A DNA stretch of 46,281 bases from Nevskia sp. (GTDB taxonomy: Bacteria; Pseudomonadota; Gammaproteobacteria; Nevskiales; Nevskiaceae), in the NCBI GenBank assembly GCA_030694365.1, contig JAUXYM010000045.1, forward strand, positions 1 to 46,281. The letters are read 5' to 3'. Of this stretch, positions 13,982 to 19,323 are shown piece by piece (within the stretch, counting starts at the first letter, position 1; each line of letters starts with the position of its first letter). The notes below the pieces were generated by a model. That model did no database searches, was not told the origin of the DNA, and saw only the letters and a program-made list of their open reading frames with translations. The translations under genes and the position numbers were made by a program.

Positions 13982-14143
13982 CGGCTGGAGCCTCGCCAGA
14001 ATAGGGTTGAACGGAGCTTACGGCAGTGGCGGTCGGCAGCGCAGCGCTGCGAAAAAGCTTGCCGCAGCCAGATCGGTGCTGGCGATCGGGCGTGATAGGC
14101 TTACCCAGAGGCTTACTTCGAGTCTTGATTGGGGGAGTTCAAG

Positions 14144-14422
14144 ATGTTCCAGGCGCAGGTTTCCAGCAAAGGACAGGTGGTTATCCCCAAGGTCTTGCGG
14201 GACCGCTGGGGCATCGACGAAGGCGCGGTCATCGCGTTCGTCGAAGACGCGCAGGGGCTGCGACTGACCGTGCAGCCGAAGCCGACCGACGACAGCGTCC
14301 GGCAGTCTCTGGACGCGGGTCTGGGGCTGGCCGCCCCGCCAGGCCAGTCACGCAGCCCAGCCCCAAGCCCAGCAGAAATGCGCGCGGATGTGCGCGCGGC
14401 ATTCAAGCGCAAACCCATCTGA
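14144..14422 (+). CDS. AbrB-type antitoxin
   Basis: A 92-residue protein starting at the ATG at 14144, which has GGGGGAG six bases upstream; a TTG at 14129 is less likely. The first half is a SpoVT/AbrB swapped-hairpin DNA-binding domain (VSSKGQVVIPKVLRDRWGI, then GAVIAFVEDAQGLRLTVQP). The tail (about residues 50-92) is Pro/Ala-rich and then basic, and probably wraps the toxin. Its stop codon overlaps the start of the PIN-domain gene by one base (TGATG). It should neutralise that toxin and repress its own promoter. Confidence 0.88.
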   Translation: MFQAQVSSKGQVVIPKVLRDRWGIDEGAVIAFVEDAQGLRLTVQPKPTDDSVRQSLDAGLGLAAPPGQSRSPAPSPAEMRADVRAAFKRKPI

Positions 14423-14823
14423 TGTGGGCGGCGGATACCAACGTTCTGGTCCGCTACTACACCCAGGACGATGCCGCGCAGACCAGCCGCGCGCTGGCCT
14501 GGCTGCATCGCCACGCGCCGTGTTTCGTGCCGGTCAGCGTGGTGCTGGAGCTGTACTGGGTGCTTGAAAACAGCTACCAATCACCGGTGACCAAGGTGCT
14601 GGCGGCCTTGCATCACCTGGCGCATAGCCCAGCGTTTCAGGTCGAATCAGCCGGGGCTGTCCGGCAGGCGCTCGGCCTTGCCGCGCGTGGTATCGAATTC
14701 CCCGATGCGCTGCACTGGGCGCTGAGCCGGGACTGTGACGGCCTGGCGACGTTTGATGACAAGGGCTTTGCCCGAAGGGCGAAGAAGCTCGGTCTGACGC
14801 CGGTTGTGGTGCTACCGGATTAG
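14422..14823 (+). CDS. PIN-domain ribonuclease toxin (VapC-like)
   Basis: A 133-residue protein translated from the ATG at 14422. The PIN fold is marked by AADTNVLVRYYTQDD (first catalytic Asp at residue 4), a Glu in VSVVLELYWVLENSY, and the late acidic pair in GIEFPDALHWALSRDCDGLATFDDKGFARRA. Such toxins cut RNA, often tRNA, when the antitoxin is degraded. The tight overlap with the AbrB gene makes a two-gene toxin-antitoxin operon. Confidence 0.88.
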   Translation: MWAADTNVLVRYYTQDDAAQTSRALAWLHRHAPCFVPVSVVLELYWVLENSYQSPVTKVLAALHHLAHSPAFQVESAGAVRQALGLAARGIEFPDALHWALSRDCDGLATFDDKGFARRAKKLGLTPVVVLPD

Positions 14824-15815: not shown

Positions 15816-15854
15816 GTAGGGCGGGAAAGCGGCTGCATCGCGCATCCCGCCAAG
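15816..15854. repeat. REP-type repeat, family R2, single module
   Basis: The module begins GTAGGGCGGGAAAGC and ends GCGCATCCCGCC, forming a stem of GGCGGGA with TCCCGCC. The same module occurs at 16726-16839 (two copies, inverted), 23839-23944 (two copies) and 24748-24788. It is in the intergenic space beyond the methyltransferase stop. Confidence 0.75.
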
Positions 15855-15886
15855 ACGTTTGCGATGCCCCGTGGGTCCGCACAGCA

Positions 15887-16699
15887 CTATTTCTCGATAG
15901 TCACCACGAGCGCCTGGATCTTGCCATCCACGGCATCCATCCCAAACCGCTGTGCGACGGCGGTGGCGGCCCTGTCAGTCGCTGCACCGAGTCGCCCAGC
16001 GTCGCGCGCTTCGATCTCGTTTCGGAGCGGTGTGCCCTGGCAGTAAGCGATTGCCGGCTCCCGGGCCGATGCTGCTCGGCTCCGCGCTGCGAGCCTGACG
16101 ATCTGGGCCGGCTTGGTGAATCCGGCGCTCGCAAGGTCCCGCTCGATGGTCGACCGGTCGTGGTAGCCATAGGGCGTGCGCGCCAGGAAGCGCGGTGGAT
16201 TCTCAGGGAAGACCGCTTCAAGCGCCGTCGTGATGGTGTCGGCGAACTCGTTATCTGAGATGCGATCCCAAACATTGAAAATGAACACGCCGCCCGGCTT
16301 GAGCACGCGGCGCGCTTCGGAAAACGCTTGGGCCTTGTCAGGGAAGAACATCACCCCGAACTGGCAGACGACGGCATCGAATTCTTCATCGACGAAGGGC
16401 AGGGCCATGGCATCCGCCTGTTGCCACTGGACAGGACGGGCTGTTCCTACCGCAGCGGCCTGATCGAGCATCGCCTGATTGAGGTCGGTGGCAACGATGG
16501 CAAAGCGTTCGTTCGGGATGCTTGCCAGTGCACGGGTCACCACGCCGGTGCCCGCAGCAACTTCCAATATCCGGGACAGCTTCATCGAAGCTAGCCGTTG
16601 CTTCAGGTCCGCCGCATACGGTTCGAAGATCAGCGGTACGAGATGAGTCTCGTAGAGCTTTGGAATCGAGCCGGAGAAGAGCTTGTCGGTATCAGACAT
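15887..16699 (-). CDS. Class I SAM-dependent methyltransferase (UbiE-like)
   Basis: A 270-residue protein with the SAM-binding motif ILEVAAGTGVVTRALA (about residues 44-59), the acidic ATDLNQAMLDQA, the adenine-site ADAMALPFVDEEFDAVVCQF, and motif III RVLKPGGVFIFNVWD. This fits the UbiE/COQ5-like methyltransferase-11 family. The substrate cannot be predicted. A His/Arg-poor C-terminal part includes a SAFT-like segment. It is followed by an R2 repeat and preceded by an R2 pair, and does not appear to be in an operon. Confidence 0.85.
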   Translation of the reverse strand: MSDTDKLFSGSIPKLYETHLVPLIFEPYAADLKQRLASMKLSRILEVAAGTGVVTRALASIPNERFAIVATDLNQAMLDQAAAVGTARPVQWQQADAMALPFVDEEFDAVVCQFGVMFFPDKAQAFSEARRVLKPGGVFIFNVWDRISDNEFADTITTALEAVFPENPPRFLARTPYGYHDRSTIERDLASAGFTKPAQIVRLAARSRAASAREPAIAYCQGTPLRNEIEARDAGRLGAATDRAATAVAQRFGMDAVDGKIQALVVTIEK

Positions 16700-16725: not shown

Positions 16726-16839
16726 GTAGGGCGGGATAGCAGTTTCACCGCGTATCCCGCCAAGATATTTGCGCCGGCCTTCAAACCGTGGTTTTGGCGT
16801 CCGAGTTGGCGGGATACGCCGTTGGCTATCCCGCCCTAC
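16726..16839. repeat. REP family R2, two inverted modules (BIME-like)
   Basis: Module 1 (16726-16764) starts GTAGGGCGGGATAGC and ends GCGTATCCCGCC. Module 2 (16806-16839) is its reverse complement, GGCGGGATACGC to GCTATCCCGCCCTAC. The outer end of module 2 coincides with the R' position of the attC site described next. Confidence 0.8.
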
Positions 16840-16907
16840 TGCGCTCAGCCGCCGTTTTGCCGTAGCGAAGCGAAGGCAAAACGGTCGGCTGGAGCGCCTG
16901 GTTAGGC
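16833..16907 (-). mobile_element. Integron attC recombination site
   Basis: On the minus strand the site starts with the R'' box GCCTAAC (16907-16901), which also holds the stop codon of the preceding cassette gene. A long imperfect palindrome follows. On the plus strand GCGCTC (16841-16846) pairs with GAGCGC (16892-16897), AGCCG (16847-16851) with CGGCT (16886-16890) and CCGTTTTGCC (16852-16861) with GGCAAAACGG (16875-16884). That is 21 bp of stem with a 13-base loop. The only unpaired bases within the arm are T16885 and G16891, five pairs apart, both on the plus (attC bottom) strand. Extrahelical T and G on that side are the hallmark integron integrase reads. The R' box is GTAGGGC instead of GTTRRRY, a single mismatch at the third base. 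Confidence 0.82.
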
Positions 16908-17183
16908 ATGGCCGCAGGTAAATATGTGGCTCTCACTGAATTCAATTTTCTGACCTATAGAAAAGCCATTGCACTCAACTGATAAGCCAGGATCAAAACC
17001 ATAGATGGTTCCGCGGAAGTGACCTGGGCTTATGGTTTCTACGATGCGAACTAGAACCCGCTCTTCTTGTATTTTCAGTTCTACGCGGGCTCCGTCCGTA
17101 ATATCTTCTTTCATTTTCTGCCCGCGTGAGTAGTGGCCTTCAGAGAAGACGATGCTTTGCCCCGACATACGTTCAGAAAACAT
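16902..17183 (-). CDS. Cassette gene 2: small hypothetical protein
   Basis: A 93-residue protein if started at the ATG at 17183, which has GGAGG four bases upstream. A TTG at 17222 would add 13 residues but lacks a better site. The sequence (MFSERMSGQSIVFSEGHYSR, later RVLVRIVETISPGHFRGTIYG) looks like a small beta-rich domain ending GFSIGQKIEFSESHIFTCGHA. I do not recognise the family. The TAA stop falls inside the GCCTAAC box of the attC site, as is usual for integron cassette genes. Base composition is clearly richer in A/T than the neighbours, with codons such as AGA, TCT and ATA. It sits 39 bases after cassette gene 1. Confidence 0.65.
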   Translation of the reverse strand: MFSERMSGQSIVFSEGHYSRGQKMKEDITDGARVELKIQEERVLVRIVETISPGHFRGTIYGFDPGLSVECNGFSIGQKIEFSESHIFTCGHA

Positions 17184-17222
17184 ACCGCCTCCAGTAGAGA
17201 AAATTGGAACCAGAGAAACCAA

Positions 17223-17828
17223 TCATTGTTTCTCTGTAGCTGTCTTGTATTGCGACCACCATTCCGGCTTCTGCTTCTTAAACTCAGCCGCAAGGCTAAC
17301 GTACTTTCGGAGGGTCATGGCAGAACCTTGCTTTTGGGCGAACCGGTAAAGCTTTACGAGAGCCACCGCAGCCAAGTCTTGTTCTGTCTTTTTGTCGAAG
17401 CCGACCGCATCTTTTTCTAACATATCTGCTCCAACGCAAAACGAAAAAAATGATGTTGCTTCTGTAACTGTTGCCTGATCTTCTGCCGAAAGCTTCGCCA
17501 CTGCTGTTTGTAGCTGTTGTGGGAACGACTCCACCTTAGATACATCTGGCGCAATAAATGGTGCATCTAAGCCAACTGCCGCTGCCGTCTGGGCTGTGGC
17601 CCATGGAGGAGCACTCGGTGTTGTGGCTGTGGAATGTGGTGTAAGTGCCGTAATCAGGACGCGATGTAGCACGAACCCTAAAATGACGGCCCCGGAATAA
17701 TACTTGGAACCACCAAACGGCCGCTTTAATACGGCGCGGACTAGGAATGCAACAACCGCAGCTATTGCTACGACGATGGCAGCAAACACTAATCCTTCAA
17801 GAGCATTTTGCAACCGACCATCCAGCAT
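17223..17828 (-). CDS. Cassette gene 1: membrane-anchored hypothetical protein
   Basis: A 201-residue protein with GAGGATC shortly before the ATG at 17828. There are two predicted membrane segments (LEGLVFAAIVVAIAAVVAFL at about 10-29 and GAVILGFVLHRVLITAL at about 46-62). A Thr/Ala/Pro-rich linker and a helical soluble part of about 125 residues (SKVESFPQQLQTAVAKLSAE, later DLAAVALVKLYRFAQKQGSA) follow. I do not recognise it. Codon use and composition differ from the chromosomal genes on both sides, which fits a mobile cassette. It shares the cassette with the small gene downstream and is probably co-transcribed with it. Confidence 0.7.
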   Translation of the reverse strand: MLDGRLQNALEGLVFAAIVVAIAAVVAFLVRAVLKRPFGGSKYYSGAVILGFVLHRVLITALTPHSTATTPSAPPWATAQTAAAVGLDAPFIAPDVSKVESFPQQLQTAVAKLSAEDQATVTEATSFFSFCVGADMLEKDAVGFDKKTEQDLAAVALVKLYRFAQKQGSAMTLRKYVSLAAEFKKQKPEWWSQYKTATEKQ

Positions 17829-17947
17829 TTAGAGATCCTCAGCGTTCAACGTCAATCTTTGATCGTTGTGTGCGTAATGCTATCGACAGACCCGACGAGT
17901 CTCCGACTTGACGGACCAAAGGCAGGTTTTGGCCGCGCCTCTGGAAT

Positions 17948-17993
17948 GCCTAACTATATTTAGGATGCGGAACCGCACAATAAGCTGTCAGGC
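17948..17993 (-). mobile_element. Upstream cassette boundary: GTTAGGC core, degenerate att site
   Basis: On the minus strand the sequence ends CCTAAATATAGTTAGGC, with the core site GTTAGGC at 17954-17948. A possible partner box GCCTGAC lies about 40 bases upstream and a small hairpin TGCGG/CCGCA between them. The form CCTAAAxxxxxGTTAGGC resembles the end of class 1 attI as I remember it; a decayed attC is the other reading. The cassette would run from TTAGGC at 17953 to the G of R' at 16839, about 1.1 kb. The remaining sequence up to 18138 holds no gene that I can support; no integrase frame was found. Confidence 0.5.
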
Positions 17994-18138
17994 TTTCGTG
18001 CGCTTCCGCTCGATAATCTGTCTGTAGCCGCAGGATAATCTGGTGTGACTGAGTCAAGGGTCTGATTCTCTGAATTTTTCCAAAGCATAACCGTGCAAGC
18101 AATTCCGGCGCTGTGCCCCAAGCCAGGAAAAGCCATCA

Positions 18139-19323
18139 TCAAGCCGCCCGCAAAGCCACCGCAATCTGCATCCGCGCCGCCCGCAGCGCCGGAAAGAATC
18201 CGCCCAGAAAGCCGACGAACAAACTCAACACCAGCCCATTGATCAGCAATGTCGGCGTTACCCGGAAGCTGAAGGCGACCTGGGTGAAGCCGGCACCGAG
18301 TGTCGAGACGGTGTAGCCATTGAAGAAGGCATAGGCACCCACAGCGCCGATCAGGCCGCCGATCAGAGCCAGCACCATGGCTTCCAACACTGTTGCGGCG
18401 ATGACCACGCCGCCGCCGAAGCCGAGGGCGCGCAGGGTGGCGATCTCGACGGTTCTGGCCGCGACGGCCGAGTACATGGTGTTCAGCGCGGCGAAGATCG
18501 CGCCCAGGCCCATGATCACGCCGACGACGCTGACCAGCACGCCGATGGTCTTGGTGAAGCTGCGCGACTGCGACGAGAAGTATTCGACTTCGTTCTGCAC
18601 GTCGACCTGCAGGCGCGGGTCGGTGGTCAGGCTGTCCTTGAAGGCCTGGAACGCGGACGGGTCGGCCAGCTTCACCAGCAGCGAGGAGTAGCCGTTGCGG
18701 CGGAACGCCGACTGGGCGGTTTCGATGTCGACCAGCACCTCGGATTCATGGGCATCGCCGTTCGATGCGAAGACGCCGACCACGGTCCATTGCGAGCCGC
18801 GAATCTGCACGGCGCTGCCGATGTCCAGCCCGACGAATTGCTCACGGGCTTTCAAGCCGACGATCAGTTCCTGCAGACCGGGCTTGAAGCTGCGGCCTTC
18901 GACGATCTGCAGTTCCGGGCGGATCGCGAAGCCGGCAGGGCCGATGCCGCGCAGCGAGACATTGCTGTCGGTATTCGAGCGGCGCAGCGGCCGCTCGGCG
19001 ATCAGGCTCAGTTCGCCGGAGGCCAGCGGCTTGCCGTCGTCGCCTTTGGCAACGCCGGGGGCCTGCTCGATGACGATGGCCTGATCGCGGGTGAAGAAGC
19101 TCGACAGTTCGGAGTTCGAACCGCCTCTGAGCACGATCGCGCGATCGGCGCTGCCGGTAGCCCGCAAGGTGGCGACCATGCCGGTGGACATCGACTGGAG
19201 TGCGGTGACCACGCCGACGACACCCGCAAGGCCGACGACGATCACCAGAGTCGCGCCCCAGCGCGCCGGCACACTTTTCAGGTTGATGCTGATCAGCTTG
19301 AACATCTGGGCCAGAAATTTCAT
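18139..19323 (-). CDS. ABC transporter permease (FtsX/MacB type), second of pair
   Basis: A 394-residue inner-membrane protein. There is an N-terminal membrane helix (WGATLVIVVGLAGVVGVVTA), a large periplasmic domain (about residues 45-270), then three membrane helices (TIGVLVSVVGVIMGLGAIFA, AATVLEAMVLALIGGLIGAV and GLVLSLFVGFLGGFFPALRA), the FtsX-domain layout. VEIATLRALGFGGGVV is the coupling-helix region. It begins 3 bases after the preceding permease and forms a heterodimer with it in the model for this family (DevC/MacB-like). The set probably exports a peptide, lipid or drug using the ATPase and membrane fusion protein upstream. Confidence 0.88.
   Translation of the reverse strand: MKFLAQMFKLISINLKSVPARWGATLVIVVGLAGVVGVVTALQSMSTGMVATLRATGSADRAIVLRGGSNSELSSFFTRDQAIVIEQAPGVAKGDDGKPLASGELSLIAERPLRRSNTDSNVSLRGIGPAGFAIRPELQIVEGRSFKPGLQELIVGLKAREQFVGLDIGSAVQIRGSQWTVVGVFASNGDAHESEVLVDIETAQSAFRRNGYSSLLVKLADPSAFQAFKDSLTTDPRLQVDVQNEVEYFSSQSRSFTKTIGVLVSVVGVIMGLGAIFAALNTMYSAVAARTVEIATLRALGFGGGVVIAATVLEAMVLALIGGLIGAVGAYAFFNGYTVSTLGAGFTQVAFSFRVTPTLLINGLVLSLFVGFLGGFFPALRAARMQIAVALRAA

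Follow-up and report, generated by a model that had tools for sequence, protein, structure and literature searches.

On the minus strand of the window, the whole stretch of 46,281 nucleotides that was analysed, the gene for a MacB/FtsX-type permease is followed by an attI-type site, the box G|TTAGGC, two open reading frames (ORF1 and ORF2), an attC, a REP doublet and the gene for a class I methyltransferase (Table 1). An earlier note on this DNA had described an integron-type cassette at this place, and the boundaries on which it relied could be verified. The minus strand reads GTTAGGC at 17954-17948, where the cassette opens, and GCCTAAC at 16907-16901, which is the R'' box of the attC, and the stop codon TAA of ORF2 (16904-16902) falls within the latter box. 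Read in reverse complement, the 5' box is identical to the R'' box of the same cassette, and it agrees with the consensus G|TTRRRY. Moreover, GTTAGGC occurs once per strand in the 46 kb of the window, that is, only at the two cassette boxes. The insert is also AT-richer than its surroundings, as the note had stated, with a GC content of 50% vs 64% for the window. Elsewhere in the window (14129-14823, plus strand), two overlapping reading frames resemble, as judged by eye from their translations, an AbrB-type antitoxin and then a PIN-domain toxin (VapBC-like).

Table 1. Features of the cassette locus and its neighbours (positions in the window)
Feature	Position	Strand	Basis or remark
MacB/FtsX-type permease, left neighbour	18139..19323	-	PF12704, PF02687
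attI-type site (type A)	17955..18077	-	TTATCNNGC-type repeats, L-box CCTAA-ATATA, crossover G17954|T17953
5' box G|TTAGGC, attI junction	17948..17954	-	reverse complement of R''
Gene cassette, 1,115 bp, 50% GC	16839..17953	-	bounds: G|TTAGGC and attC
ORF1, 201 aa	17223..17828	-	two hydrophobic segments near the N-terminus, no family assigned
ORF2, 93 aa	16902..17183	-	ATG behind GGAGG, stop inside the R'' box
attC	16833..16907	-	fold, covariance model; R'' 16907-16901, R' replaced by G|TAGGGC 16839-16833
REP doublet (GTAGGGCGGGATA ... TATCCCGCCCTAC), chromosomal repeat directly behind attC	16726..16839	.	
Class I methyltransferase, right neighbour	15887..16699	-	PF08241

Canonical attC sites contain an extrahelical T and an extrahelical G. 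In the fold of the plus strand of 16833-16907, which is the attC bottom strand, T16885 and G16891 are unpaired and lie five pairs apart, as the earlier note had described. This fold, which the note had proposed as a check, has a free energy of -28.1 kcal/mol (z -5.65) and was equalled by none of 200 shuffles; the opposite strand yielded -26.1 kcal/mol (z -5.09). A covariance-model search, also suggested in the note, recovered the site as well: a model of 21 attC of relatives, with the window excluded, matched 16907-16833 on the minus strand with 68.9 bits (E 8e-15 over 290 kb) and the opposite strand with 20.3 bits. The 21 attC had been recruited by similarity to the window attC, so that the model is not fully independent, and they come from true arrays, several of which are located beside intI. 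Throughout the genome to which the window belongs, the model matched only the window site and a weak one on contig C48 (35.3 bits) at E <=0.001. Furthermore, BLAST searches with the window DNA uncovered attC-like sequences of up to 95% identity in arrays from the genus and the family to which the window belongs, and an Rfam search of the window returned a tRNA only and no attC family. The features that define an attC, namely the R'' and R' boxes, the paired arms and the extrahelical bases of the bottom strand, are present, with an R' box that is atypical: its position is occupied by G|TAGGGC, the GTAG head of a REP element, and not by GTTRRRY. The bases before R' are shortened to GCA, compared with GGC in 60 of 70 attC picked from the covariance-model matches and GC in nine of the other ten. 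Judged by its sequence, the stretch is an integron gene cassette with a genuine attC, and the unusual R' box, together with its unusual spacing, means that the cassette may be frozen.

The two encoded proteins matched no family in Pfam or NCBIfam over the cut-off and none in PADLOC up to an E value of 1, and thus no known toxin, antitoxin or defence family in these three collections. A comparison of both proteins with PHROGs gave no confident match either, nor did one of ORF2 with the PDB sequences. When 85 genomes of the order were searched, ORF2 found only itself. Searches for ORF1 in plasmids and for ORF2 in viral contigs yielded nothing useful. According to the earlier note, one protein has two membrane helices and the other is small and beta-rich. 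The two hydrophobic stretches of ORF1 are indeed present and the model of ORF2 consists entirely of strands, but the structure models, which were computed from one sequence each, are poor (mean pLDDT 55.7 for ORF2 and 55.0 for ORF1). ORF2 is probably a small, strand-rich protein, going by this low-confidence model, and it is a weak guess that ORF1 might be anchored in the membrane and carry a soluble helical domain. The suggestion that the two form a paired system was not borne out by these searches: ORF1 and ORF2 share one cassette, and no evidence ties them functionally. No promoter-like site that reads into the cassette was detected; the one site found lies on the other strand, and 1.0 was expected.

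The site attI1 has L and R boxes. The stretch of approximately 123 bp that precedes the cassette (18077-17955) constitutes an attI-type site according to both a model and an alignment. The attI model R2, built from 11 attI of relatives with the window excluded, matched 17948-18070 with 54.6 bits (E 2.3e-14), which is its sole match in the window genome; across 58 genomes of the family it matched 17 places in six genomes, all of them in the genus and none outside it. The upstream stretch of the window resembles the start of an integrase-less array in genome G005 (69.6% over 79 nt), and a search with that array start retrieved the same sequence from contigs G005:C29 and G011:C27, where intI lies on one side of it and the first cassette on the other. 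In BLAST, the window attI and the intI-linked attI of G005:C29 share 71% identity across 124 nt. The intI-linked attI of this type, referred to as type A, end in CCTAATTGTAG|TTRRRY. When 84,980 species genomes were scanned by pattern, the attI core turned up in four assemblies only, at ten places, all in MAGs. Among 17 type-A attI, the pairwise identity is 0.30 upstream and increases towards the core, where it reaches 0.82. The left edges of the copies vary. In several type-A copies the DNA similarity reaches up to and past the start region of intI, and only the final stretch of about 60 bp is common to the weak copies.

Compared with a complete integron, the locus has the attI that adjoins the cassette and lacks the intI beside it; moreover, tblastn detected no remnant of IntI in the window. 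The earlier claim of a single cassette without an integrase therefore stands in part, since the cassette is genuine and the window contains no intI, but the cassette is not alone because it sits at an attI, which makes the locus an integrase-less integron and not a cassette that landed at random. The note had also advised looking for intI elsewhere in the genome, and one intact copy is indeed present on another contig, C44 (470.9 bits vs a cut-off of 265). The attI beside this resident intI is of type B, unlike the type-A site of the window, and the identity between the resident and the type-A IntI is 64%. A type-A intI was not found in the window genome, the assembly of which is 89% complete.

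The closest relative that has the locus, G014 (contig C56), carries 196 bp between the permease and methyltransferase genes, compared with 1,439 bp in the window, and its flanks are 85-89% identical to those of the window. Neither the attI nor the attC model matched this stretch. Thus, the locus of G014 is empty, and the possibility raised in the note that the two genes are stable chromosomal genes in related genomes does not apply to G014. When compared with G014, the insert is best fitted with its left edge at 18078 or, equally well, at 18070, which is where the similarity to attI starts. Since the attI is absent from the empty site and the edge of the insert is at the attI start, the attI arrived with the insert, and the inserted unit begins near 18077, not at 17954. 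The REP doublet is found at this place in G014 as well, without a cassette, and its repeats are the same as those elsewhere in the window genome. For this reason, a later insertion of the REP into the attC was rejected. The idea that the cassette alone had entered a secondary site, the GTAG head of the REP, was overturned for the 5' side by the upstream attI. GTAG-headed REP elements are situated at 16726-16839 and at about 15816-15863 of the window, with copies on contigs C12, C60, C63 and C91; GTAG-tagged REPs are described as a known superfamily (PMC3733652). At the same locus in G010 (contig C22), other, unrelated DNA lies directly behind the permease stop codon, and no attC or attI match was obtained there.

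These observations bear on two rival explanations. In an attG-type insertion, IntI would have placed the cassette at a non-classical chromosomal site with no attI involved. The 3' junction is indeed chromosomal, with G|TAGGGC being the REP head, and the genome does carry an intI; however, the 5' side is attI by model and alignment and has no counterpart in the empty locus of G014, and we regard such an insertion as highly improbable. Somewhat less improbable, although still unlikely, is a circle of attI and cassette without intI, which would have been excised by recombination between attC and a site to the left of the attI and inserted in one step, and which would make the attI itself mobile. 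The insert sits between the GCTTTG and the TAGGGC of the empty site, from which little has been lost, and this precise fit would also suit a unit that was inserted without intI, as would the many attI copies dispersed at unrelated places and the short shared end of the weak ones. Against this explanation, the left edges differ from copy to copy, other genera retain intI remnants of graded length, and divergence that rises away from the core can give short matches without any boundary.

Orphan attI are dispersed over the chromosomes of related freshwater bacteria in the uncultured Lysobacteraceae genus, where 16 of type A and six of type B were counted. The type-A orphans comprise all matches of R2 except the two beside intI (15) and one truncated site that was added by eye (G016:C1, near 1,398 kb, at the E2-like locus described below); five are in G005, four each in G011 and G016, and one each in G015, G010 and the window genome. 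For type B, four copies are linked to intI in addition to the six orphans. A tblastn search of the fetched stretches with 14 IntI proteins (E 0.01) revealed no IntI remnant at any of the 22 orphan loci. An attC follows ten of the 16 type-A orphans, one of them weak (G005:C11, E 0.05-0.08, with the matching box GCATAAC), and all six type-B orphans, again with one weak case (G002:C9, E 0.014). No attC was found behind the type-A orphans of G011:C48, G011:C54, G016:C2, G005:C26 and G005:C1, or behind that of G010:C325, where the contig ends 175 bases on. In the assembly of G016, which has six contigs, ten attC matches at E <=0.001 were observed besides the four orphan attI, and several of these attC (C5, C2 and C4:142 kb) lie away from known orphan attI.

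Two chromosomal loci hold an orphan attI in more than one species, and the cassettes differ at one of them. The neighbour genes called SET-like, E2-like and TamB-like were named by reading translations, not from search results. Behind the SET-like gene, an orphan attI is present in G005:C23 and G015:C16, and between the stretches that follow the two sites tblastx detected no similarity and blastn a single match of 48 bp. G005 and G015 are labelled as coming from the same lake sample, but the flanks of this locus differ by 16%. At the E2-like gene, related type-A sites occur in G011:C48 and G016:C1 and a type-B site in G015:C18, and the first ORFs differ between the genomes. Behind the G011 and G016 cassettes at this locus, a repeat roughly 170 bp long recurs with 75% identity and with inverted pieces. 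Among the genomes inspected, the SET-like locus is without attI in G011, G016, G002, G014 and the window genome, and the E2-like locus in G005, G014, G008, G002 and G004.

Integrase-less arrays of other genera were also considered, by comparing 16 loci without an integrase in other genomes with 12 attI regions that are linked to intI or, in one case, adjoin an intI fragment. A copy of the attI was identified at three of the 16 (G020:C2, G025:C4 and G024:C2) and not at the other 13, for some of which the array start is off the contig or a reference attI is missing. The attI of G020:C2 is 93% identical to the resident one and lies beside an IntI remnant of 109 aa, and a remnant of 42 aa is present in G019:C1. 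In G025:C4 and G024:C2, attI that are 83-85% identical to the resident ones open arrays of 8 and 14 cassettes, respectively, counted as model matches within the fetched stretch. In G024, moreover, the first cassette next to intI shares 92% identity over 177 nt at its start (L199:8508-8684) with a cassette of the orphan array on another contig (L200), which would fit traffic between intI-linked and orphan arrays.

Taken as a whole, the window unit is likely an orphan integron, consisting of an attI and one two-gene cassette with no integrase adjoining, which lost its integrase and received its cassette through an IntI from elsewhere. As a route to an orphan attI, integrase loss is the likeliest one, and it is inferred because graded remnants of intI adjoin attI copies in other genera. 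An integron platform would first have been copied or moved to the locus, with at most the first few intI codons left at the left edge; the integrase part would then have been lost and the attI core kept. Subsequently, an IntI encoded elsewhere would have inserted the cassette at the G|TT of the attI, with the REP head G|TAGGGC as the chromosomal sequence behind it. If the site is still in use, IntI may act in trans, which we put forward as a proposal only. Several points speak against the orphan integron, namely the resident attI of type B and the lack of a type-A intI in the assembly, the six of 16 type-A orphans without attC, the 13 of 16 integrase-less loci outside the genus without attI, the atypical R' box with its spacing, the lack of a promoter-like site that reads into the cassette and the precise fit of the insert to the empty site.

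The unit could be a plain relic of a former integron, the integrase and the activity of which are gone and which is kept for its cassette genes or by chance, and we give this a substantial chance that nevertheless stays below even. The atypical R' box would agree with a relic, as would G016 and G002, which have four orphan attI and one, respectively, and no intI match at E 1e-25. However, conservation within the site is highest at the attI core, and two species carry different cassettes at one shared locus, which requires exchange after the site had been founded. A more far-reaching and rather doubtful possibility is a distributed integron, in which several attI at separate, partly conserved places would serve as landing sites for one IntI acting in trans, so that cassettes reach different neighbourhoods.

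Integrase-less arrays, the decay of intI and the duplication of integrons are already in print (PMC12444791, PMC8618304, PMC2426708). In the open-licence literature, the only literature searched and thus weak evidence of absence, no published account of orphan or dispersed attI was found, and orphan attI that are dispersed and common to several species appear to be new on this basis. Integrase-less cassette arrays are common (PMC8618304). A search for an attI at the start of an array separates their possible origins, and standard software does not make such a search (PMC9024848). IntegronFinder 2 is described as seeking attI for class 1 only and as reporting at least two attC by default (PMC9024848); because of this scope and default, it would miss or split the window unit. 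If orphan attI were still served in trans, an integron would be a network of landing sites and not one locus, and active integrons would have to be counted anew. Likewise, if the distributed integron were true, many integrase-less arrays would be functioning platforms and would represent neither ruins nor the outcome of off-target insertion.

Loot et al. 2024 reportedly observed that IntI inserts cassettes at non-classical chromosomal sites (attG) in E. coli. The window resembles such an insertion in that the cassette is away from the resident integron. It differs in its target, since an attG is neither attI nor attC and an attI is present on the 5' side here. The window unit is also similar to a CALIN, as it has an attC, in this case a single one, and a cassette without a neighbouring intI, but it begins with an attI. 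For CALINs, off-target insertion, loss of the integrase or rearrangement have been given as origins (PMC8618304), and in Xanthomonas they were reported at seven other loci, in an account that does not discuss attI where it treats them (PMC12444791). With sedentary chromosomal integrons that have an inactive intI, the unit shares a chromosomal attI with cassettes and the decay of the integrase (PMC2426708, PMC12444791). An intragenomic duplication has been proposed for many pseudo-integrons (PMC2426708); in contrast to these, the IntI-coding part is wholly gone at 22 places within one genus here, the attI persists and loci are common to several species. Finally, the Delta-attI-type cassettes of mobile integrons also have an attI outside its usual place; in those cassettes it replaces the attC, whereas in the window the attI lies upstream of the cassette as its landing site (PMC12901181).
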